From contig QXWX01000166.1 of assembly GCA_009911175.1 (NCBI GenBank), positions 1 through 8,710 on the forward strand: 8,710 nucleotides of DNA, in the 5' to 3' direction. The DNA is from Lachnospiraceae bacterium. GTDB lineage: Bacteria > Bacillota_A > Clostridia > Lachnospirales > Lachnospiraceae. Of the stretch, positions 1 through 8,710 are shown one piece after another; position 1 is the first letter of the stretch, and every line of letters begins with the position of its first letter. The notes under the pieces are model-generated. The model worked only from the letters and a program-made list of their open reading frames with translations. It was not told where the DNA came from and ran no database searches. A program made the translations under genes and the position numbers.

Positions 1-73
1 CTGAAAATATTTTATAGGCTAAAGTATTGATTTTTCAATGTGCGAATCCCATTTTTGATGTGGGAAGTTTGAG

Positions 74-250
74 TTAAATCAATTCCATAGCCCTTTTATA
101 CAATGAATCTAATTCACAGCCACAGCTTCCACATTCTTTGTCTGCTTGCTTGATTGCTGATACTAAAGTGTCTTTATCGGCTTTTCCCTCTAACCATTGT
201 TGTGCGGGAATAGATATTAAATCCCAACCAGACGCAACGAACTTCTCCAT
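74..250 (-). CDS. Small cysteine-containing hypothetical protein (58 aa), possibly the 3' part of a decayed gene
   Basis: I do not recognise a named family. Read on the minus strand, the frame from the ATG at 250 to the TAA at 74 gives 58 residues that look like a folded, charged, amphipathic protein. It begins MEKFVASGWDLISIPAQQW, has a central Lys/Asp-rich helix, then a C-G-S-C-G-C cluster (residues 40-45) followed by a Leu-Tyr-Lys-Arg helix. The three close cysteines could bind a metal or form a disulfide; that is inference. The frame stays open upstream of this ATG only to a TAG about 16 codons earlier, with no ATG, GTG or TTG start and no Shine-Dalgarno sequence before the chosen ATG. 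The piece may therefore be the C-terminal end of a longer gene broken further upstream. The opposite strand has an open frame over the same bases (138..398), but its composition is less protein-like over 138..250. Confidence 0.42.
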   Translation of the reverse strand: MEKFVASGWDLISIPAQQWLEGKADKDTLVSAIKQADKECGSCGCELDSLYKRAMELI

Positions 251-344
251 AATAGATTTGAATGCCGATACAGATATGAGAGAAAAAATTGATGCAGTCT
301 ATGACGTAGATAATCTTCCAGTTTATTGTACTGCGAAACAACTA

Positions 345-401
345 TCAAAAGTCATGCAGCTCCACCCAGACTTTTCCAGTGCCGATATCAGCATTTAACA
401 T
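345..401 (-). pseudogene. Possible start of a small gene, cut by tandem stops
   Basis: On the minus strand an AAAAAGG Shine-Dalgarno-like sequence (409-415) lies 7 nt before an ATG at 401. The frame gives 18 codons (MLNADIGTGKVWVELHDF), then TGA TAG in tandem. It lies just downstream of the nuclease gene on the same strand. Together with the 74..250 ORF, which is in a different frame, it could be the two ends of one small gene of about 109 codons that has been disrupted. The middle section (251-344) is not clearly coding in any one frame, so this is only a suggestion. Confidence 0.2.
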
Positions 402-424
402 ATCAATACCTTTTTAACATATGC

Positions 425-1255
425 CTACACAAGTTGCTTCCCATATCGCTCCAAGTAGGCGACGGCTGTTTCTAAGGACACCCCAATTTTTTCCTGCAGC
501 CTTTTCAAAATATCCGCATCATCCAGGCCAAACTCCTGCCCCATTTCAATAATTTCTTCTGCTTTTCCAGCCTCTCTTCCTTTGCGAATCAACTTTTCAG
601 ATTCGGTCTCAATTACTGTTCCACCCATAATATTCACCAGCCTTTCTTCGCTTTTATTTCCATTTGTAATATGTGTAATAATGGTATTTACAAATCCCAT
701 GAGATCTATCATCTCATCATCTGCTAATTCACCTTTTTTATGCAGCCGAACCATTTCATTTCTAAAATACTCTAAATCTTCTGCCGCATTCTCTATATTA
801 TTTTCAGAAGTAATATCCTTTTCATACCTCGCAATATAAAAAGGAATATAGGGGAATAATCTCTTTTCAACAATGCGTTCCTTTGTAAATTCCTCCAGAA
901 TGATATTCTCAGAATTATAATTCACTTCCTGTCCATCCGGAAATGTAAATGTAATCCTTGTTATTTTCGGTGTTTTTTCCGTTCTTTTGATATAAATAAT
1001 CGAAAATCTCGGCATGGGAATAGTTGCATGGCCAATATCCCATGCTGCAAATTGCCTGGCAACAATAAATGCATACTCTGCAATTCTGATTGCCATGGAT
1101 CCATCATCATAACTCTGGCACTCCAAAAGATAGACCTCTTTTCCAATCTTAATTACAAAATCTGAAATCTGTTCTTCGATATCTTTACTTCCATCTGTAG
1201 TCTCACTTTCGGTCAAATACCCCTCAGATGGTAAAGTTTCTACCTTCACATCCAT
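425..1255 (-). CDS. Rpn-family PD-(D/E)XK nuclease / putative transposase, apparently 5'-truncated
   Basis: The 276-residue product resembles the Rpn (recombination-promoting nuclease) and PD-(D/E)XK 'putative transposase' group common in Clostridia. Visible core: Asp32 in ISDFVIKIG, then the strand EVYLLECQS with Glu45-x-Gln47 (E-x-Q in place of E-x-K), then DGSMAIRIAEY with Arg57, a typical helix after the catalytic strand. Residues 83-145 match the conserved middle section (phenylalanine/proline-rich, KRLFPYIPFYIARYE). The C-terminus (220-276) is a charged helical region with a Gly-Arg-Glu-Ala-Gly-Lys segment, usual for this family. E. coli RpnA-type proteins are DNA endonucleases that promote RecA-independent recombination; activity here is inference. 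The ATG at 1255 has no convincing Shine-Dalgarno sequence. The frame remains open upstream for 23 codons of protein-like sequence with no start codon before a TAA at about 1324-1326, so the family N-terminus seems lost. Confidence 0.75.
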   Translation of the reverse strand: MDVKVETLPSEGYLTESETTDGSKDIEEQISDFVIKIGKEVYLLECQSYDDGSMAIRIAEYAFIVARQFAAWDIGHATIPMPRFSIIYIKRTEKTPKITRITFTFPDGQEVNYNSENIILEEFTKERIVEKRLFPYIPFYIARYEKDITSENNIENAAEDLEYFRNEMVRLHKKGELADDEMIDLMGFVNTIITHITNGNKSEERLVNIMGGTVIETESEKLIRKGREAGKAEEIIEMGQEFGLDDADILKRLQEKIGVSLETAVAYLERYGKQLV

Positions 1256-1380
1256 AGGGTAATTCTTCCCAATCGCTGCTTCCCTGATTGAAAAAAGGTA
1301 AGATATCTTATCCTTATTATATCGTTAATTAACTTCCCTGGCAACCAAAAAGAAACCTAAGCATCTATATTCATCTATAA

Positions 1381-1409
1381 TTGACAATCCCCCGCACACC
1401 CTATATAAT
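1381..1409 (+). promoter_or_regulatory. Consensus sigma-A promoter of the blaI-blaR1 operon
   Basis: TTGACA at 1381-1386, a 17-bp spacer and TATAAT at 1404-1409: a perfect match to the vegetative consensus. Transcription should begin near 1416, at the edge of the BlaI-type operator, so a repressor bound there would block initiation or early elongation. Confidence 0.9.
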
Positions 1410-1415
1410 ATCTTT

Positions 1416-1432
1416 ATTACACATGTAAGATT
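1416..1432 (+). promoter_or_regulatory. BlaI-type operator controlling blaI-blaR1
   Basis: ATTACACATGTAAGATT contains the dyad TTACA-CA-TGTAA. It lies between the -10 box and the AGGAGGG ribosome binding site of blaI (1433-1439). It closely resembles, from memory, the TACA/TGTA dyads bound by BlaI and MecI in Bacillus licheniformis and Staphylococcus aureus. Two more copies of the same 17-bp pattern lie upstream of the lipoprotein gene (5112-5128 and 5163-5179). Autoregulation by BlaI is the expected consequence. Confidence 0.82.
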
Positions 1433-1446
1433 AGGAGGGATTTACC

Positions 1447-1845
1447 ATGGCCGCTCTGCCGCAGATTTCCGAAGCTGAATATGAGGTAATGAAGGTCGTA
1501 TGGAAATACGCGCCCATCAATACCAACGAAATCACTGAGAAATTACTGAAAACCACCGCCTGGAGTCCTAAGACGATACAGACCCTGATCAAACGTCTTG
1601 TAACCAAAGGCGCTCTTGCCTATGAAAAGCAGAGCCGGATATTCGTCTATACCCCATTAGTAAAGGAAAAGGAATATATTGGCCAGGAAAGTAATTCTTT
1701 CCTGAAGCGTTTCTATGATGGAGATATCACTGCCATGCTCTCTGAGTACATAGAAAACGACAGACTGTCTGATTCAGAGATCGAACACCTGCGATCTCTT
1801 CTTTCCACAACAAAACCCGGTAAAGGAGGCAGACTGCATGACTGA
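1447..1845 (+). CDS. blaI: BlaI/MecI/CopY-family penicillinase repressor
   Basis: A 132-residue winged-helix repressor, close to the 123-128 residues usual for MecI/BlaI. The N-terminal start (LPQISEAEYEVMKVVWK), the recognition helix region (about residues 38-55, WSPKTIQTLIKRLVTKG) and the wing (57-70) are typical of the family. The C-terminal helices (about 75-120) form the dimerisation domain. In known systems BlaI represses the bla genes until it is cleaved after BlaR1 activation. By rough alignment the S. aureus Asn101-Phe102 cleavage site corresponds here to Glu100-Tyr101. The start at 1447 is fixed by AGGAGGG (1433-1439) 7 nt upstream. The stop overlaps the blaR1 start by 8 nt, so the two are translationally coupled. 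BlaI probably represses both its own operon and the convergent lipoprotein gene, since both promoters carry the same operator. Confidence 0.93.
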   Translation: MAALPQISEAEYEVMKVVWKYAPINTNEITEKLLKTTAWSPKTIQTLIKRLVTKGALAYEKQSRIFVYTPLVKEKEYIGQESNSFLKRFYDGDITAMLSEYIENDRLSDSEIEHLRSLLSTTKPGKGGRLHD

Positions 1846-3703
1846 TTTTATCATACATTTTCTTATAAGCAATCTGTTCATCAGCGGTATCATCGGGCTT
1901 CTTATGGCCGTTAAGCATTTATTCCGAAACAGCCTGTCCGGCCGGATGCAGTATCATCTGTGGTTTTTGCTGCTCGGACTTCTGGCCGTTCCTTTCATAC
2001 CGCTGCGTCCAGCCAGATTCTCCCGGATATTCTCCCGGCTTGCATTCTTTCAAAATTTCTCCGTGTCATATACAGGGAATGCAGCAAGAGAACGAATGAC
2101 TGTCGATCCGACCGGAAATATGGACTGGCTGAATGATTTTACTCTTTCTGTAAGCAGCGGTACCTCTTCCATTACCGGAAACATACTGCTGGGAATCTGG
2201 ATTGCAGGCATCCTTGTAATGGTGGTGTTCCTGGCGAAGGCTTTCCTCCGGTTACAAAACCTGAAACAGTCTGCGCTTCCTCTTCAACACCCAAAAATCC
2301 GCAGACTGTATCATCAGTGCCTGCATGAAATGAAGATAACAAAAAATATTCCCATATACAGCACCGCGTTTTTGAAATCGCCTGTGATTGTAGGGCTTCT
2401 AAGGCCCCGCATCTATTTTCCGATTCATTTGATCTCAGATTATAATGAAAATGAAGCAGAGATTAATAATACCCAAAAGGTATCCTGTAATCCGTGCCGC
2501 CTTGATACAAGCGGGCTTCGTCCAATAAGATATATGCTGCTGCATGAATTACAGCACTACAGACATAAAGACGCACTGGCTAATTATCTGATAGTCCTTG
2601 CCAGAATGATTTACTGGTTCAATCCCGTTGTGTGGCTTGCACTGAGAGAAATGCAATGCGACAGAGAGGTTGCCTGCGACACCTCCGTACTGAACATGCT
2701 TGATGGTGATTCTTATGGAGATTATGGAAATATATTGATCAGTTTTGCCGAAAAGATCTCTCATGCTTCCATCCCTTTTGCCGTCAATCTCAGCGGAACG
2801 ATGACACAGATGAAACGGCGCATCATGAACATTGCCACCTATGAAACACCAACATTAAAGAAGAAGCTGAAAGGCATGGCTGCTTTTTTGCTGACATCCG
2901 TTCTTCTGATCAGCCTGGCGCCGATATTATCTACATATGCGGCAGAGGACAGCCACTACCGATGGAAATCCTCTTCAAAGAACGTCACCTCCCTGGATCT
3001 TTCGTCTTATTTTGGAGAATATGAAGGAAGTTTTGTTTTGTATAATCTTGAGCAGGACGCATGGGGCATCTACGATATGGAGCATGCCGCTTTACGGCGC
3101 TCTCCTGACTCCACATACAAAATGTATGACGCATTGTTTGGACTGGAAGAAGGTATTATTACACCGGAAGATTCCAAAATGGAATGGGATGGGGAAAACT
3201 ATCCGTTTAAGGAATGGAATGCTGACCAGACCCTGACATCCGCCATGCGCTCTTCAGTCAACTGGTATTTCCAGGGAATTGATAAACAGCTTGGATCCGC
3301 TTCTGTTAAGAACTACATTCAGAAAATCGGATATGGCAATGAAAACACAGAAGCCGGTCTCCCTTTCTATTGGCTGGAATCTTCCCTAAAGATTTCTCCC
3401 ATAGAACAGGTAGAACAACTGGTCAGACTATATAACAACGCCTTCGGATTCCAACCTGAAAATGTCGAGGCAGTAAAGGATTCCATCTGTCTCTCCTTAT
3501 CAGAAACAGGAACTATCTATGGGAAAACCGGAACAGGAAGCATTGATGATTCGAATGTAAACGGATGGTTTGTCGGATACGTTGAAACTGCCGGCAATAC
3601 ATACTTTTTTGCCGCCAATATCGGCGCCGGCACTGATGCCTCTGGAGCGAATGCGGCCGAAATAACCATGTCCGTCTTATCAGATATGAATATATGGAAA
3701 TAA
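1838..3703 (+). CDS. blaR1: BlaR1/MecR1-family beta-lactam sensor, M56 metalloprotease with penicillin-binding domain
   Basis: A 621-residue membrane signal transducer that senses beta-lactams outside the cell and triggers loss of BlaI inside. Predicted membrane segments lie near residues 4-23, 39-57, 115-134 and 347-368. The M56 peptidase domain has HELQH (236-240) and a downstream zinc-ligand candidate Glu277 in CDREVACD. An Arg-Arg pair at 327-328 sits where S. aureus BlaR1 is reported to self-cleave (Arg293-Arg294), given the offset of about 35 between the HExxH motifs. The extracellular sensor (about 370-621) is of the class D beta-lactamase type: STYK with acylated Ser425 and Lys428, SVN at 473-475, KTG at 563-565. 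AAAGGAGG (1822-1829) lies 8 nt before the ATG. It is about 20 residues longer than the usual 585-601, explained by an extra segment of about 25 residues (204-230) just before HELQH. No resistance gene follows it directly; a terminator does. Confidence 0.93.
   Translation: MTDFIIHFLISNLFISGIIGLLMAVKHLFRNSLSGRMQYHLWFLLLGLLAVPFIPLRPARFSRIFSRLAFFQNFSVSYTGNAARERMTVDPTGNMDWLNDFTLSVSSGTSSITGNILLGIWIAGILVMVVFLAKAFLRLQNLKQSALPLQHPKIRRLYHQCLHEMKITKNIPIYSTAFLKSPVIVGLLRPRIYFPIHLISDYNENEAEINNTQKVSCNPCRLDTSGLRPIRYMLLHELQHYRHKDALANYLIVLARMIYWFNPVVWLALREMQCDREVACDTSVLNMLDGDSYGDYGNILISFAEKISHASIPFAVNLSGTMTQMKRRIMNIATYETPTLKKKLKGMAAFLLTSVLLISLAPILSTYAAEDSHYRWKSSSKNVTSLDLSSYFGEYEGSFVLYNLEQDAWGIYDMEHAALRRSPDSTYKMYDALFGLEEGIITPEDSKMEWDGENYPFKEWNADQTLTSAMRSSVNWYFQGIDKQLGSASVKNYIQKIGYGNENTEAGLPFYWLESSLKISPIEQVEQLVRLYNNAFGFQPENVEAVKDSICLSLSETGTIYGKTGTGSIDDSNVNGWFVGYVETAGNTYFFAANIGAGTDASGANAAEITMSVLSDMNIWK
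2447..2527 (+). other. Apparent in-frame extra segment in blaR1 before the HExxH motif
   Basis: Residues 204-230 (ENEAEINNTQKV... with Cys-Asn-Pro-Cys at 217-220) separate ISDYN from RYMLLHELQH. In related clostridial BlaR1 proteins, as I remember them, these two pieces are almost adjacent. The DNA holds an imperfect hairpin at 2496-2516 (CTTG-ATA-CAAG core flanked by GCC/GGC) and a small one at 2469-2483 (ATACC/GGTAT). The boundaries are approximate and the insertion call depends on remembered family alignments. Confidence 0.45.
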
Positions 3704-3755
3704 AAAAGACCGGAGATACAGTGCCATTATTATTACTGTTATCCGGTCTTTATTA
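3704..3755. terminator. Bidirectional Rho-independent terminator between blaR1 and the lipoprotein gene
   Basis: A 10-bp stem AAAGACCGGA (3705-3714) pairs with TCCGGTCTTT (3742-3751). There is a further inner pairing ACAGT/ACTGT (3718-3722 with 3735-3739). A-rich sequence precedes the hairpin and T-rich sequence follows it, so it can serve both convergent genes. It starts directly after the blaR1 stop codon. Confidence 0.88.
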
Positions 3756-3814
3756 ATTTTCACTGTATCCGTCACCTGCTCCCCACCTTCTTATCATCCA
3801 TTTTACATTTTCCA

Positions 3815-5044
3815 CTATTCCGGCTCCCCATACATTTCTTCCCACTGTTCCTCTGTCAAACGGGGTTTGTGCCATGTTGCCTCATAATTGTCTTCCGACG
3901 GTATAATCCGGTTCGATACATATTGCACTCCTCCATTATCCAAAGGGCGGATCACAACCTCATGTGCATACACTTTTGAAAGGCTTTTATAAGGGAATAC
4001 CGCTTGAACCGTAAGCGTTATCGTTCCGTCTTCGTTTTCCGTATAACTGACCACTTCTGGAAATGGGTACTCCGGATACTCCGCTTCAAAAAAACCTCTC
4101 GGTTTATATTCGTAAGTTTCATCCTCTGAATGGAAAATGGTTTTGGACTTAAGTGCGTCACTTTCTATATTAAAGTACGTTTTAATTACACTTTCAAACT
4201 CTTCCTTCGGTATCCTGTATACTGCACCGACTCCCAGGTTATCATCCATGCCATAGGGGATACACTGATTATTGATCTTAGGATAGAAAATGTCATACAA
4301 ATCATAAAAATCTAAATCTCCAAAGTCTGCCTCATTCCAGTCCACAAGGAACATGTTATTCCGCTCATAACTGACAGGCAGAATATACTGCCGGTTCAAC
4401 TCCCTGCATTTTTCATCTAACGGCTGCACTCGGAACGCGATATAGTCTTCTGCATCGCTCAATGTGAGTACATACAGCTCTTCGGAATAATAACTGCCTG
4501 AAAACAGTAAGTGACCGTCTTTTGTATACTCCCAGTGGTCTGCTAAGTAACTGGCCGTAAATACATTCTGCATATCTTTATTTTCATATTTGTAGTAATT
4601 AGTCTCCACAATTACTTCCCCGTCTTTTGTCCGCAGATCATATTTCACGATTCCGTCCAACGCGCCCTCCAGGTCATTAATCTTGATAATAGTAAGATCG
4701 CTCTCTTCCTTTGCACCTACTTTTTCACAGAACCGGACTACCTGTTCCACCTCCGTCATATCGATTTGATTTTTTGCGTCAATTGCCGCATACCCGTTAT
4801 CTCCTAAGCGATTCACGATACTTCGGAAGACTTCCAAATCACCCATGCTACCTTCATCATCCGCTTTCCTAAAAAGGTCATAGCAGATCTCAACTACTGG
4901 TTCTGTTTCTTTTTGAATATTTTGCTTAAGTTCGGCATTGTTCCCATTTTCAATATTCTTTTGTTCTATTTGAGATGTATTGCTGCATCCTGTAATGCAG
5001 AACAATAATATAAAAATAAGGAATTTGCTGTATCTTTCTCTCAT
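3815..5044 (-). CDS. BlaI-regulated secreted lipoprotein of unknown function (possibly DUF6070-like)
   Basis: A 409-residue protein with an N-terminal lipoprotein signal: MRERYSK, a hydrophobic stretch (8-18) and lipobox ITGC with Cys20. It should be lipidated and anchored on the outer face of the membrane. The mature part starts with a Gln/Asn/Glu-rich linker (about 21-48) and is then an acidic, aromatic-rich globular domain. The C-terminal third (about 275-409) looks best conserved in the clostridial lipoproteins it recalls, including DNLGVGAVYRIPKEEF, EYPFPEVVSYTENEDGTITL and YAHEVVIRPLDNGGVQY. I associate these with DUF6070, but that name is from memory. No catalytic motif is evident. GGAGGT lies just upstream of the ATG at 5044. 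The gene converges on blaR1, shares its terminator, and has its own promoter bearing two BlaI-type operators, so it should be induced by beta-lactams. Its role could be cell-wall stress protection, drug binding or a signalling accessory; none is shown. Confidence 0.85.
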   Translation of the reverse strand: MRERYSKFLIFILLFCITGCSNTSQIEQKNIENGNNAELKQNIQKETEPVVEICYDLFRKADDEGSMGDLEVFRSIVNRLGDNGYAAIDAKNQIDMTEVEQVVRFCEKVGAKEESDLTIIKINDLEGALDGIVKYDLRTKDGEVIVETNYYKYENKDMQNVFTASYLADHWEYTKDGHLLFSGSYYSEELYVLTLSDAEDYIAFRVQPLDEKCRELNRQYILPVSYERNNMFLVDWNEADFGDLDFYDLYDIFYPKINNQCIPYGMDDNLGVGAVYRIPKEEFESVIKTYFNIESDALKSKTIFHSEDETYEYKPRGFFEAEYPEYPFPEVVSYTENEDGTITLTVQAVFPYKSLSKVYAHEVVIRPLDNGGVQYVSNRIIPSEDNYEATWHKPRLTEEQWEEMYGEPE

Positions 5045-5111
5045 ATGACCTCCTTCCTTCCCTCTTTTTAAACTCGTTCATATTATGTTCTCATAGTTTA
5101 TAACTTATAGT

Positions 5112-5128
5112 ATTACACTCGTAAGACT
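5112..5128 (-). promoter_or_regulatory. BlaI-type operator, promoter-distal copy, upstream of the lipoprotein gene
   Basis: On the plus strand ATTACACTCGTAAGACT, which matches the blaI operator at 13 of 17 positions (three of the differences fall in the central triplet). It lies in the expected transcript leader, about 26-42 nt past the predicted start of transcription, and its centre is 51 bp from the other copy. A bound repressor could form a roadblock or cooperate with the promoter-proximal site. A weaker second promoter may overlap it (TTTAAG-17-TATAAG on the minus strand). Confidence 0.75.
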
Positions 5129-5160
5129 TAAACCCAAAAAAATATATCTGCCGCACTCAA

Positions 5161-5189
5161 ATATTACATCAGTAAGATTTATAAGTCAA
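5161..5189 (-). promoter_or_regulatory. Promoter of the lipoprotein gene
   Basis: On the minus strand TTGACT (5189-5184), a 17-bp spacer and TAATAT (5166-5161). Transcription would start near 5154, giving a leader of about 110 nt before the ATG at 5044. The spacer and -10 box are covered by a BlaI-type operator. Confidence 0.75.
5163..5179 (-). promoter_or_regulatory. BlaI-type operator overlapping the lipoprotein promoter
   Basis: On the plus strand ATTACATCAGTAAGATT, with arms ATTACA and GTAAGATT identical to the blaI operator and only the central three bases different. It spans the -10 box and most of the spacer of the minus-strand promoter, an ideal place for repression by steric exclusion of RNA polymerase. 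Confidence 0.8.
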
Positions 5190-5276
5190 GAGTAAATTAT
5201 AATGGACAATGCTTAAGTCCCCAAACATTTTCAGGGGCCAAAATCAGATTATAACAAAAATTCTTCTCCATATTCA

Positions 5277-5305
5277 TTGAATTTCTACCTGGAGAATGAT
5301 AAGAT
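5277..5305 (+). promoter_or_regulatory. Promoter of the AAA-ATPase-like gene
   Basis: TTGAAT (5277-5282), a 17-bp spacer and TAAGAT (5300-5305), with AGGAGG (5319-5324) and the ATG (5332) following. The promoter faces away from the BlaI-controlled one; no BlaI-type operator is seen near it. The remaining sequence between the two promoters (5190-5276) holds only a weak CCCC/GGGG dyad at 5219-5236. Confidence 0.65.
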
Positions 5306-5331
5306 ACAAGAAAACCTTAGGAGGTGCTGCT

Positions 5332-7076
5332 ATGCCGAGAATAGTTGGAATCGGCCATCAAGACTTTGAACAGATGATCACAAGCGACAATTTCTATATT
5401 GATAAGACCATGTTTATCAAAGAATGATGGGAAAACAATGATACCGTAACCCTGATCACCCGTCCCAGACGTTTTGGAAAGACGCTGAATCTGAGTATGA
5501 CAGAACATTTTTTCTCTGTCAAACATTCCGGGAGAGACGATTTATTTCAGAATCTGTCTATCTGGCAGGAAGAAAAATACAGAGAATTGCAGGGAACTTA
5601 CCCTGTCATTTTCTTAAGCTTTGCCGGTGTGAAAGAAACCTCCTTTCCTGATGCAAGAAAAAGTATCTGTCAGATTATAGAAAATTTATATAACAAATAT
5701 GATTTCCTTCTGGAAAGCGACCATTTGAACGAAAGGGAAAAAAAGCGTACAAGAACGTCTCCGCCGATATGGATCATAATCTGGCCGCCAATTCCCTGAA
5801 TACCTTATCGGATTACCTGATGCGTTATTATGGGAAAAAGGTGATTCTCCTATTGGACGAATATGATACTCCTATGCAGGAAGCCTATGTGCATGGCTAC
5901 TGGGATGAACTGGTTCCTTTTATCCGCAATCTGTTTCATTCCACTTTTAAGACAAATCCTTTCCTTGCAAGAGCCATCATGACCGGAATCACCAGAGTCT
6001 GCAAGGAGTCAATCTTTTCTGAATATGTTACCAATTCCGCAGGAATTGATAACCTGCACGCACATCAGTGCGTTTCCTCTTTTGACCTGAATAATTTGAC
6101 GGTAGTGACAACAACCTCAGATCTGTATGCGGAAAGCTTTGGCTTCACCCAGCAGGAGGTATGGGATGCTCTGGAAGAATATGGCCTGTCAGCCAAAAAG
6201 GACGAGGTCAGAAGATGGTATGACGGATTTACATTCGGCAATAAGACCGATATCTACAATCCCTGGTCGATCATCAATTATCTGAAATTTGCAAAATTCT
6301 CCCCCTACTGGGCCAACACCAGCAGTAACAGCCTGGTCGGAAAACTGATCCGTGAAGGAAGCGCGGATACAAAAATGGTTATGGAGGATCTTCTTTCGGG
6401 CAAGGCGTTCCGGACACAGATTGACGAGCAGATTGTATTCAGTCAGTTAGGGCGCCGGGAAAACGCCGTCTGGAGCCTGCTGCTTGCAAGCGGCTATCTG
6501 CGTGTGAAGCAATGGAGTATGGACAAAAGAGACCTGATCATCTATGAGCTCGTATTAACCAACCGCGAAGTAACACTAGTGTTTGAGCAGATGGTAGAGG
6601 ATTGGTTCTCAGAATTTACACCCGCTTATAATCAGTTCCTCAAGGCGCTTTTATTAGATGATAAAAAGGCGATGAATCTGTATATGAACCGGGTTGCCCT
6701 CACTACCTTCAGTTACTTTGATACCGGAAAGCATCCGTCCGAAGCAGCAGAACCCGAAAGATTTTATCATGGCTTTGTTCTTGGCCTGATGGTAGATCTT
6801 GCTGAACGGTACACAATTACTTCTAACCGTGAAAGCGGGTTCGGAAGATATGATGTGATCCTTGAGCCTCTTTCTGACACAGACGACGCTATTATTCTGG
6901 AATTTAAAGTCCATGACCCGGACGAGGAAACTTCGCTTGCAGATACGGCGCAGGAAGCATTGGATCAGATTGAGCGCATGAAATATTCTGCTTCGCTGGA
7001 AGCAAAAGGCATCCCAAAGAAACGGATCCGGCAGTATGGATTCGCATTTGAAGGGAAAACGGTATTTATTGGATAA
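5332..7076 (+). pseudogene. AAA-ATPase-like protein with C-terminal PD-(D/E)XK nuclease domain, disrupted by a stop codon and a frameshift
   Basis: The start at 5332 has AGGAGG 7 nt upstream and opens MPRIVGIGHQDFEQMITSD, the usual beginning of the AAA-ATPase_like (PF09820) plus DUF1703/PD-(D/E)XK (PF08011) family. Codon 32 is TGA (5425-5427), directly before a TGG; relatives usually have Trp-Trp here, so TGG to TGA is likely. The same frame continues with a P-loop variant RPRRFGKT (codons 44-51) to 5799. A frame change in the A7 tract at 5738-5744 then moves coding to the frame that holds Walker B (VILLLDEYD, near 5841), TGITRVCKESIFS, and the nuclease core Asp (6852), Glu-x-Lys (6900-6908). 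Adding one A gives 581 codons, normal for the family. The second part has no ribosome binding site at its first ATG (5769). A palindromic insert lies at 6021-6083. The biological role of the family is not established. Confidence 0.85.
6021..6083 (+). repeat. In-frame palindromic insert within the ATPase-like gene
   Basis: This 63-nt block encodes 21 residues (EYVTNSAGIDNL...) between SIFS and DLNNL, which I recall as contiguous in relatives. It contains two adjacent hairpins. The first has 11 pairs and one mismatch: 6027-6038 with 6042-6053, loop GCA, core CAATTCC/GGAATTG. The second is ACGCAC (6058-6063) with GTGCGT (6068-6073), loop ATCA. Such density of dyads in coding sequence suggests a small mobile palindromic element. 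Confidence 0.5.
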
Positions 7077-7107
7077 ATATATTTAGAAAGTGATAGAAAT
7101 ATATTTA
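7075..7107. repeat. Twin AT-rich palindromes AAATATATTTA
   Basis: Two identical 11-bp copies (7075-7085 and 7097-7107), each with the perfect palindrome AAATATATTT, lie 22 bp apart, about two helical turns. They sit between the ATPase-like pseudogene and the small lipoprotein gene. They could be a regulatory site; in AT-rich DNA chance is also possible. A poor -10 candidate TACAAT follows at 7114-7119. Confidence 0.35.
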
Positions 7108-7144
7108 ACAGACTACAATTTCACATTGAAGAAGGAAAAAGGGA

Positions 7145-7627
7145 ATGAATAATTTGAAGAAAGTTAGAAAATATAGGAAGCTGAAAATGATATTGCTTTG
7201 CCTGCTTTGCTTACTGGTGACAGCGTGCAGCAATCAATTTGCGAAGCAAGAGTATGATTCTGATGAAAAAATCGCTCAGGACACAGACCGTTATGCAAAA
7301 GAAAATTCTGTAGCGAATTCCGTAAATGGAGAATATTCACTTACAGTTTCCAAGTTTAATGGACGTGAGACATTGTGGAAAGAAACAATAAAAGAAAATA
7401 AAGATATAGAAATTGATTTTGATCTTAGTCTTTTAAAAGGACAGGCAAAAATAGTATATATTGACAGTGAAGATCATGTTACGACACTGATCGAATGTCT
7501 GCCCGAAACTTCAACAGATGGATTCGTAACAAAAACCTTGTCGTTAAAAAGCGGGAATAACAGATTAAAAATCGTTGGATATGACTGTGAAAATATTGAT
7601 CTGAAAATGTTATTTGCAGAACCCTAA
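7145..7627 (+). CDS. Small secreted lipoprotein of unknown function (160 aa)
   Basis: The N-terminus is Lys/Arg-rich (MNNLKKVRKYRKLKM), followed by a hydrophobic stretch (15-26) and a lipobox VTAC with Cys28, so the product should be a membrane-anchored extracytoplasmic lipoprotein. The mature part has a short acidic linker, then an apparent all-beta domain from about residue 60 (GEYSLTVSKFNGRETLWKETI) to the end, with alternating hydrophobic strands. Similar small lipoproteins with an 'S-x-F-x-G-R-x-x-x-W' strand occur in Clostridia, but I know no function. The start at 7145 is preceded by purine-rich sequence (GAAGG and AAAGGGA); no strong promoter is visible in the 68 nt after the broken ATPase gene. 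A clear terminator follows, so it is a single-gene unit or the end of a transcript from upstream. Confidence 0.75.
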   Translation: MNNLKKVRKYRKLKMILLCLLCLLVTACSNQFAKQEYDSDEKIAQDTDRYAKENSVANSVNGEYSLTVSKFNGRETLWKETIKENKDIEIDFDLSLLKGQAKIVYIDSEDHVTTLIECLPETSTDGFVTKTLSLKSGNNRLKIVGYDCENIDLKMLFAEP

Positions 7628-7665
7628 CAAATAATAATTCTGGTCAAACGAATCATTCTGACAAG

Positions 7666-7713
7666 AACAGCCCCTGCCGGATGAAAGGTATTCTAACGGC
7701 AAAGGCTGTTTTT
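7666..7713 (+). terminator. Rho-independent terminator after the small lipoprotein gene
   Basis: Stem AACAGCC (7666-7672) with GGCTGTT (7704-7710), plus inner stem TGCCG (7675-7679) with CGGCA (7697-7701), followed by a T-run (TTTTTATTT). The LysR pseudogene converges on it from the other side; A-rich sequence on the left is weak, so function for the minus strand is less certain. Confidence 0.85.
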
Positions 7714-7748
7714 ATTTGTATAAAAGGAGCACAAAAAACATCAATTCT

Positions 7749-8629
7749 TCAAAAGACATGGATAAATCTTAGAATATTCTCATTGAACGGCTCAATATCC
7801 TGATATAAAAAACCAATCTCACGGGACGGAACGGGATTAGCCAAGGGTACTTCCATCAGGCAGCCTGTTTCTAATTCCTGCTCTACAAACTGTTTTACAA
7901 CGCAGGAAATCCCTATCCCCATTTTGGCAAATTCGATCAGAATATCCATTTCATTTACCTCGAGGATATGCAGGGGGATGATATGATTCTTTGCGTAGTA
8001 AGCGTTAATATGCTTCCGGGATACATTATCTTTATCAAGGAGCATGATGTTCGCATATTCAAATATTTCATCATTCTTACAGTTCCATTTCTCTCTATAT
8101 GCCGGTGTACAGACAAAAATATACTCGATAATACCCAGAGAATAATAGACCAGCTTTCCAGGGCTTTGGGGCTTTACCACCAGCGCCAGGTCAACGCTGC
8201 ACTCCTCGATCATCACGCACGCTTCCGCCGAGGATGTACACGTGATGGCCAGCTCTGTATCAGGATATAATCTTATATATACTTTCAGATAAAGCATAAG
8301 AAAATGCTTACACAATACATTGCTGGCGGCTATGCGCAAATAACCTGTATATACCGGAAACTTAAGACTTTTTTCCGCATCCGAAAGCATTTGAAACGCT
8401 TTTTTCACACTGTCGTACAGCAGCCTTCCTTTCTCTGTCAGCTCTACTCCCTTTGATCTTCTGACAAAAAGTGTCGTGTAAGATTTTCTTCCAGCTTCTT
8501 TATGGTAATACTTACTGCCGGCTGGGAAATGTACAGCGAAGCGGCCGCTTTGGATATGCTTTTATTTTCAGCAGCAGAAAAAAATCTTGTATTTTGTGAG
8601 ATTATCAAACGTATCCTTATCTTCTCCAT
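7749..8629 (-). pseudogene. LysR-family transcriptional regulator, disrupted by frame changes
   Basis: The overall span (881 nt, about 293 codons) is normal for a LysR regulator, but the coding frame changes. From the ATG at 8629 the frame gives the helix-turn-helix segment AENKSISKAAASLYISQPAV and KKLEENL, then runs to a stop at 8444. The continuation TTLFVRRSKGVELTEKGRLL lies in another frame, starting near 8479-8484, and leads into the substrate-binding domain (SLKFPVYTGYLRIAAS... to 7749). A second change appears at the A7 tract 8578-8584 (T7 in the coding sense): the sequence before it reads NLTKYKIFF in one frame and the HTH follows in another. The C-terminal part has the usual effector-domain pattern (VNEMDILIEFAKMGIGISCV). 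No ribosome binding site is clear at 8629. The regulator is divergent from a putative oxidoreductase gene starting 41 nt away and probably once controlled it. Confidence 0.82.
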
Positions 8630-8670
8630 ATAACTATAACCTGAATCCGTGAACCTAACCTAAAAATAAA

Positions 8671-8710
8671 ATGAAATCGGTAAATAAGAAATATGAGGCA
8701 CTCTTTGTAC
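8671..8710 (+). CDS. Start of a probable NADH:flavin oxidoreductase (Old Yellow Enzyme family), cut by the window edge
   Basis: The last 40 bases read MKSVNKKYEALFV in one frame. The K-Y-E-A-L-F pattern near the N-terminus is characteristic of Old Yellow Enzyme-type flavin oxidoreductases of Clostridia (for example 2,4-dienoyl-CoA reductase-like and BaiCD-like proteins), where it is followed by a P-x-x-I-G strand. Only 13 codons are present, so the call is tentative. An in-frame TAA lies four codons before the ATG, fixing this as the first possible ATG; no Shine-Dalgarno sequence is evident. Its divergent placement next to a LysR regulator fits a regulator-target pair. Confidence 0.5.
   Translation, partial: MKSVNKKYEALFV

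Follow-up and report, generated by a model that had tools for sequence, protein, structure and literature searches.

In Bacillus licheniformis, the blaP-blaI-blaR1 system relies on three operators, two at the target gene, which encodes a class A beta-lactamase, and one at blaI. The same plan of two operators at the target and one at blaI is predicted for the DNA described here, a stretch of 8,710 nucleotides from Lachnospiraceae bacterium (assembly GCA_009911175.1, contig QXWX01000166.1, positions 1 to 8,710 of the forward strand), which we call the window; its target gene, however, encodes a lipoprotein of the DUF6070 family. For Staphylococcus aureus, it has been described how a beta-lactam acylates the BlaR1 sensor and the protease cuts BlaI, whereby the operators are freed (PMC9834060). 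The mec-mecR1-mecI and blaZ-blaR1-blaI systems of staphylococci and Macrococcus share with the window the families of the repressor and the sensor-protease (PMC5341023, PMC9834060). In these systems, operators of the ATTACA...GTA type stand at the promoters of repressor and target, as they do in the window. The operators of mec systems control a gene for a MecA-type penicillin-binding protein (PBP), as do those of many of the window's relatives, whereas the target in the window is the DUF6070 lipoprotein gene, with no PBP. The genes are convergent here and divergent in these systems, and the window has three separate operators at two promoters, whereas mecD is described with one in a shared promoter region. 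No MecA-type PBP gene was found among the scanned open reading frames of the window, which is therefore not classed as a mec operon.

Judged from the sequence, the window is very probably regulated by a BlaI/BlaR1 switch with two outputs: the blaI-blaR1 pair and the convergent DUF6070 lipoprotein gene. In the drug-free cell, BlaI would occupy one operator at the start of blaI and a pair at the lipoprotein promoter, of which one takes in part of the -10 box, so that both units would be off without antibiotic. A beta-lactam would acylate the outer domain of BlaR1, the BlaR1 protease domain would destroy BlaI and, with the operators freed, blaI-blaR1 and the DUF6070 gene would both be transcribed. 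For the window, we infer repression, beta-lactam sensing and BlaI loss by analogy. The lipoprotein would then serve, on the outer face of the membrane, as an accessory to penicillin-binding proteins under attack. We regard this role as possible rather than probable; it is suggested by the overlap or fusion of the DUF6070 gene with a MecA-type PBP gene in relatives. Alone behind its operators, the DUF6070 protein of the window would need another PBP or wall enzyme as a partner. A preliminary description of this DNA had predicted a local regulon including a lipoprotein gene, and the sites, their placement at promoters and their conservation all support it; the assignment of the lipoprotein to DUF6070 and the PBP link are additions.

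The three 17-bp sites of that description lie at 1416-1432, 5112-5128 and 5163-5179, each with 0 mismatches to ATTACANNNGTAAGAYT. Across relatives the conserved unit measures 19 bp (TATTACANNNGTARGATTT), and the window copies are predicted as operator 1 (TATTACACATGTAAGATTA, 1415..1433), at the expected transcription start of blaI, operator 2 (5111..5129), in the leader of the DUF6070 gene and antisense to it, and operator 3 (TATTACATCAGTAAGATTT, 5162..5180), between the -35 and -10 boxes and overlapping the latter; all three are given on the plus strand. The relatives are represented by 80 DUF6070 loci, the best 80 of 163 confirmed in a scan of a genome collection, and counts over them lean to close relatives for this reason. 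A position matrix was built from 106 distinct sites of loci L002-L080, leaving out the window and its near-twin L001. Its top three places in the window are exactly the sites at 5162 (27.9 bits), 1415 (25.9 bits) and 5111 (23.9 bits); ranks four to six are the reverse complements of the same operators and the next independent place scores 0.2 bits. Among 300 simulated Markov-1 windows the top score was 19.2 bits, with 0 of 300 reaching 23.9 bits. The three operators stand far above chance. Compared with the published 18-letter MecI/BlaI consensus RNATTACAWNTGTARKNT, available from a figure legend (PMC5341023), the operators at 1415, 5111 and 5162 have 2, 3 and 1 mismatches. With up to 3 mismatches allowed, this consensus yields 12 strand matches in the window, where 4.1 would be expected; four of the places are unrelated.

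The sites also stand where they had been placed relative to the promoters. The blaI-blaR1 promoter (1381..1409, plus strand) reads TTGACA-17-TATAAT, in agreement with the consensus at 12 of 12 positions. Operator 1, described as directly following its -10 box, begins 5 bases beyond it, and an AGGAGG ribosome site lies at the operator end. The DUF6070 promoter (5161..5189, minus strand) reads TTGACT-17-TAATAT, with TTGACT at 5189-5184 and TAATAT at 5166-5161. Of the two sites described as on and just past it, operator 3 fills the spacer, its TGTAAT arm (gene strand) running into the -10 box, and operator 2 lies in the leader, about 26-42 nucleotides beyond the likely transcription start and 51 bp from operator 3. 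This distance is rather short: the first two operators are 57-67 bp apart in 41 of 55 measured loci, most commonly 64 bp (18 loci). The promoter scan showed no overall excess (9 against 10.8 in shuffles). In hand-picked relatives, 29 of 31 DUF6070-unit promoters have TTGAC at -35, with its spacing to the operator unchanged (exceptions L046 and L071), and TTGACA occurs in 13 of 14 blaI promoters (exception L080). This promoter footprint is stronger evidence of placement than the scan.

The link of these sites to BlaI, which the preliminary description had drawn from the neighbouring repressor and from operator dyads of B. licheniformis and S. aureus, has gained a firmer footing in the likeness of the repressor to known structures, the BlaR1 motifs, the fit to the published consensus and the motif at the blaI and DUF6070 units of relatives. 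The window blaI gene (1447..1845, plus strand) encodes a penicillinase repressor of 132 amino acids (PF03965, E-value 1.7e-33), whose closest PDB chains are the penicillinase repressor 1p6r (E-value 4.1e-28) and MecI (1okr and 1sd6). An alignment of 35 BlaI sequences shows no variation at residues 41-48, 50 and 51 (PKTIQTLI-RL). The blaR1 gene (1838..3703, plus strand) encodes a beta-lactam sensor/transducer of 621 amino acids, with an M56 protease (PF05569) and a penicillin-binding sensor (PF00905). It reaches 654.7 bits for NF000326 (cut-off 400) and matches the BlaR1 structure 8exp with an E-value of 1.1e-69; HEXXH (236) is present in the M56 domain, and STYK (425), SVN (473) and KTG (563) in the sensor.

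The second output, the DUF6070 gene (3815..5044, minus strand), encodes 409 amino acids and matches PF19546 with 403.7 bits (E-value 8.7e-121; curated cut-off 27). The protein starts with MRERYSKFLIFILLFCITGC, in which a lipobox, ITGC with Cys 20, was read by eye; G19 and C20 are invariant in 26 aligned sequences. These features suggest an exported protein with its anchor in the outer face of the membrane. No published function for DUF6070 was found in the literature searched, in which no paper names the family.

The same sites recur upstream of orthologues, where the preliminary description had suggested looking for them. With up to 2 mismatches allowed, an operator stands upstream of the DUF6070 unit in 60 of the 80 loci. 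PBP and BlaI genes were called in these loci by similarity to the L015 PBP (at least 800 bits) and to the window BlaI (at least 100 bits). Where a matching blaI is present (35 loci), it has an operator in 33; L031 falls outside this count by a distance rule, although a site is present there. Among the 20 loci lacking an operator, 9 hold only class II BlaI/BlaR genes, 8 show no BlaI or BlaR gene in the stretch available, and 3 (L008, L038 and L070) are of the matching kind with the contig ending upstream of the unit.

A MecA-type PBP gene directly precedes DUF6070 in 26 of the 80 loci, and operators stand in front of 25 of these 26; one of the 26, L038, has a PBP that is incomplete near the contig end. 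The MecA_N, PBP dimerisation and transpeptidase domains were checked in L015, full domain scans covering L015 and L064. In 24 of the 26 loci, the PBP gene runs 50 nucleotides past the first Met codon of DUF6070 (53 and 80 in the others). L064 goes further, with PBP and DUF6070 fused in one reading frame of 1086 residues that holds all four domains. Two more four-domain proteins occur among the 120 listed of 257, P0121 (97% identical to L064 in the DUF6070 part) and P0191 (66%), and P0190 has three of the four domains. In 31 of the 80 loci, DUF6070 follows the operators directly with no PBP piece detected, a 19-bit PBP trace in L034 being counted as none. On a tree of 81 DUF6070 sequences, of which 62 rows are labelled, the layout must have changed between PBP and direct at least 15 times, gains and losses being counted together. 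Here L024, L035 and L047 are labelled direct and L064 as PBP, 19 loci remaining uncounted; the tree, made by a quick method, leaves 26 of 78 inner branches open, and the starred branches by themselves require 7 and 8 changes for the two labels. Given the operators at DUF6070 units and blaI in relatives, together with these repeated layout switches, the prediction of DUF6070 as a conserved BlaI target, whether a PBP is present or absent, is well supported.

The genome-wide distribution of the sites was examined in 25 genomes, hand-picked from the DUF6070 loci and thus chosen for having DUF6070. The preliminary description had named a motif scattered over the genome as speaking against its proposal; this is not what is seen. 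At up to 1 mismatch, the pattern gives 129 matches against 6 for a reversed control, and 109 of the 129 lie within 12 kilobases of a DUF6070 gene (74 of 77 exact sites and 35 of 52 with one mismatch), a count that took in part of the DUF6070 match rows and that more rows could only raise. The three exact sites beyond this distance are at blaI genes. Six of the 25 genomes (G004, G005, G010, G011, G017 and G024) have no sites at 0-1 mismatch beyond a set of three, with one at blaI and the other two at DUF6070. Contigs C40 and C19 of G001, the genome of L001, match stretches of the window with 97.7-99.5% identity. Up to 1 mismatch, G001 has four sites: one at blaI, two at this DUF6070 gene and one at a second DUF6070 gene, which adjoins blaI and blaR1 remnants; the contigs of a third DUF6070 gene (C25) and of a MecA_N protein (C8) lack the pattern at this threshold.

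A less biased sample comprised 150 genomes of the family drawn without choosing for DUF6070, with p-values that ignore kinship. An exact site is found in 25 of them, a sensor-type BlaR1 over the cut-off in 23 and DUF6070 in 23. Exact site and BlaR1 co-occur in 18 genomes, with 5 having BlaR1 only, 7 the site only and 120 neither (p 1.6e-13); DUF6070 and BlaR1 co-occur in 16, with 7 and 7 having one only and 120 neither (p 3e-11). The sample holds 43 exact sites, 30 placed from their own annotated locus and 13 from coordinates or overlapping loci. Eight were left unassigned and thirty-five were assigned: 16 to blaI, 8 to PBP, 8 to DUF6070, 2 to class D beta-lactamase-like and 1 to D-Ala-D-Ala carboxypeptidase genes; DUF6070 thus shares its operator with the classical genes of the beta-lactam response. 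In a phylum-wide sample, DUF6070 was found in 2 of 299 genomes, of which one is the reference genome and the second gave a marginal match of 29 bits.

Several observations weigh against a two-output switch acting as proposed. The operator at 5111 differs from the published consensus by 3 mismatches, a level that the four unrelated places of the window also attain. The cleavage pair of S. aureus BlaI, Asn101-Phe102, aligns with Glu100-Tyr101 in the window BlaI and with Ala-Tyr (30), Ser-Tyr (3) or Ala-Phe (1) in the other 34 sequences, so that the aromatic residue is kept and the Asn is not. In BlaR1, an insertion of about 23 residues (about residues 207-229) precedes HEXXH; the L011 BlaR1 is without it. 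In the 25 genomes, 20 of the 129 sites are away from DUF6070, some of these at blaI or MecA_N genes, and in the larger sample 5 of 23 BlaR1 genomes lack an exact site and 7 of 25 site genomes lack a BlaR1 above the cut-off. Among the 80 loci, 17 with upstream DNA and no PBP have no operator upstream, 10 of them forming one starred clade, and the operator match of L055 (2 mismatches), one of the 60, may be chance. Finally, the predicted DUF6070 structure (predicted local distance difference test score 83, predicted template-modelling score 0.80) has no confident match in a structure search, its C-terminal half being compatible with an NTF2-like fold, as in MecA_N.

The DUF6070 gene of the window could be what is left of a mec-like operon after loss of the PBP, with regulation outliving function and only the PBP version mattering. 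Its distal operator is the same 19-mer that stands at the promoters of PBP-DUF6070 units (for example L007, L015, L016, L017, L020 and L022), and PBP scraps persist between operators and DUF6070 in L024, L035 and L047 (the fragment label of L070 reflects a contig end and not decay). Furthermore, near-identical G001 carries a shorter DUF6070 allele: in a comparison of the window gene with L116, two internal stretches at about 4227-4352 and 4526-4619 of the window are missing from it, and a 332-amino-acid form (P0009) is listed for 34 contigs. Nevertheless, the reading frame, lipobox and three sites of the window are intact, full-length copies 97% identical to its DUF6070 occur in four protein clusters, the direct layout is frequent, and the tree needs many switches. 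Operator and DUF6070 are also kept in the 13 of the 25 genomes that show no MecA_N match, several of which are metagenome-assembled and possibly incomplete. We therefore regard a relic as unlikely.

DUF6070 might instead inhibit or regulate wall hydrolases from a membrane anchor, being induced against lysis when PBPs are blocked, and not be a PBP partner. Such a role would suit the layouts in which DUF6070 is the lone target, and the predicted structure resembles, weakly, the B. subtilis DL-endopeptidase inhibitor IseA (Foldseek rank 33, E-value 0.29, probability 0.60, template-modelling score 0.44 over the target). This E-value is not significant, though, and many unrelated folds ranked as high; a hydrolase inhibitor would by itself leave the PBP gene overlap and the fusion unexplained, and we judge it improbable.

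A direct action of the lipoprotein on the beta-lactam, binding it as a decoy or destroying it as a new beta-lactamase, is very unlikely. Beyond blaI and DUF6070, the assigned operators do front PBPs and beta-lactamase-like genes. However, no conserved Ser-x-x-Lys was found in DUF6070, the 13 invariant positions in 71 sequences including no Ser or Lys, and the profile of these 71 sequences had 0 matches to solved chains at E-values up to 1. Since this motif is lacking, the protein would lie on the outer face and its gene overlaps or is fused with PBP genes, an aid to wall synthesis is likelier than an enzyme acting on the drug. Lastly, although these genomes hold many BlaI-family paralogues and a different motif is seen at the class II BlaI genes close to some DUF6070 loci, it is extremely unlikely that the sites belong to another repressor and lie near blaI by coincidence, as the motif marks nearly all matching blaI genes, is absent upstream of DUF6070 as a 19-mer in the class II-only loci (0 of 9), tracks sensor-type BlaR1 and agrees with the published MecI/BlaI consensus.

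By eye, the class II BlaI genes that neighbour DUF6070 (L059, L063, L065, L067, L073, L075 and L076) show the promoter motif GACTAnTG...ATAGT; upstream of DUF6070, the class II locus L065 has a bare TTACA-N3-GTAA core. The motif resembles GTCTAT/GACTAT of Clostridium thermocellum, where BlaI_0696 and BlaI_1845 have regulons, mapped by DNA affinity purification sequencing, that are also small and include a suspected response protein, the hypothetical Clo1313_2238; DUF6070 is not named in the accessible part of that account (PMC8457756).

Additional operator-like sites were noticed at the 80 loci. A nearly symmetric one, TCTTACANNNGTAAGATTA, lies just beyond a downstream DUF6070 gene in 12 of them (L008, L010, L012, as at L012:10766, L013, L015, L017, L018, L027, L028, L030, L032 and L044). 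In L012 it precedes small genes (146 and 415 amino acids) without a Pfam family over the cut-off, which may form a third BlaI target. In L070 (8041-8530) and L078 (14273-14787), blaI is preceded by a second pair of operators that faces a divergent gene. The L070 gene encodes a 143-amino-acid protein with an OmpR-type DNA-binding domain (PF00486) as its sole domain; the L078 reading frame is similar in length and start, and an L078 copy at 4129-4560 has PF00486. The L002 cassette belongs to a plasmid record of Sporofaciens musculi, and records under the names Roseburia inulinivorans and Clostridium fessum contain near-identical DUF6070 genes (L015 and L060), hints that the cassette moves between species.

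Elsewhere in the window, a hairpin between the convergent genes (3705..3751; -21.1 kcal/mol on the plus strand and -18.1 on the minus strand) may be a two-way terminator; it is not among the terminators listed by a pattern scanner. An AAA-ATPase/PD-(D/E)XK nuclease gene (PF09820, PF08011; 5332-7076) is broken by an in-frame stop and a frame change. A LysR regulator (7749-8629) is split over two frames, about 450 bp inside it (7820-8268) being missing in G001. Upstream of blaI, on the other strand, lies a weak relative of Rpn-type nucleases/transposases (425-1255; TIGR01784, below the cut-off), and a second small putative lipoprotein of 160 amino acids (7145-7627) has no family over the cut-off.

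The mode of regulation is of a known type, and the target family, DUF6070, is new to it. BlaR1-BlaI systems are known for inducing beta-lactamases and PBP2a; here the conserved predicted target is a lipoprotein family. PrsA, LpoA and LpoB are lipoproteins that help PBPs, and DUF6070 might work like them, a likeness of role with no claim of a sequence or fold relation. We tentatively put forward that DUF6070 proteins form an unrecognised class of beta-lactam-inducible lipoprotein partners of PBPs in gut Lachnospiraceae, encoded as the second gene or as a fusion in MecA-type operons and, in many lineages, that of the window among them, as the main or only BlaR1-BlaI output. If so, a lipoprotein without beta-lactamase or transpeptidase activity would itself be the antibiotic response. 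The overlap and fusion with PBP genes offer a concrete, testable lead to a factor that assists wall synthesis resistant to beta-lactams. Where the lipoprotein gene stands alone, the effect of DUF6070 would be separable from that of any linked PBP. The finding may thus point to an unstudied part of how gut bacteria withstand penicillins.

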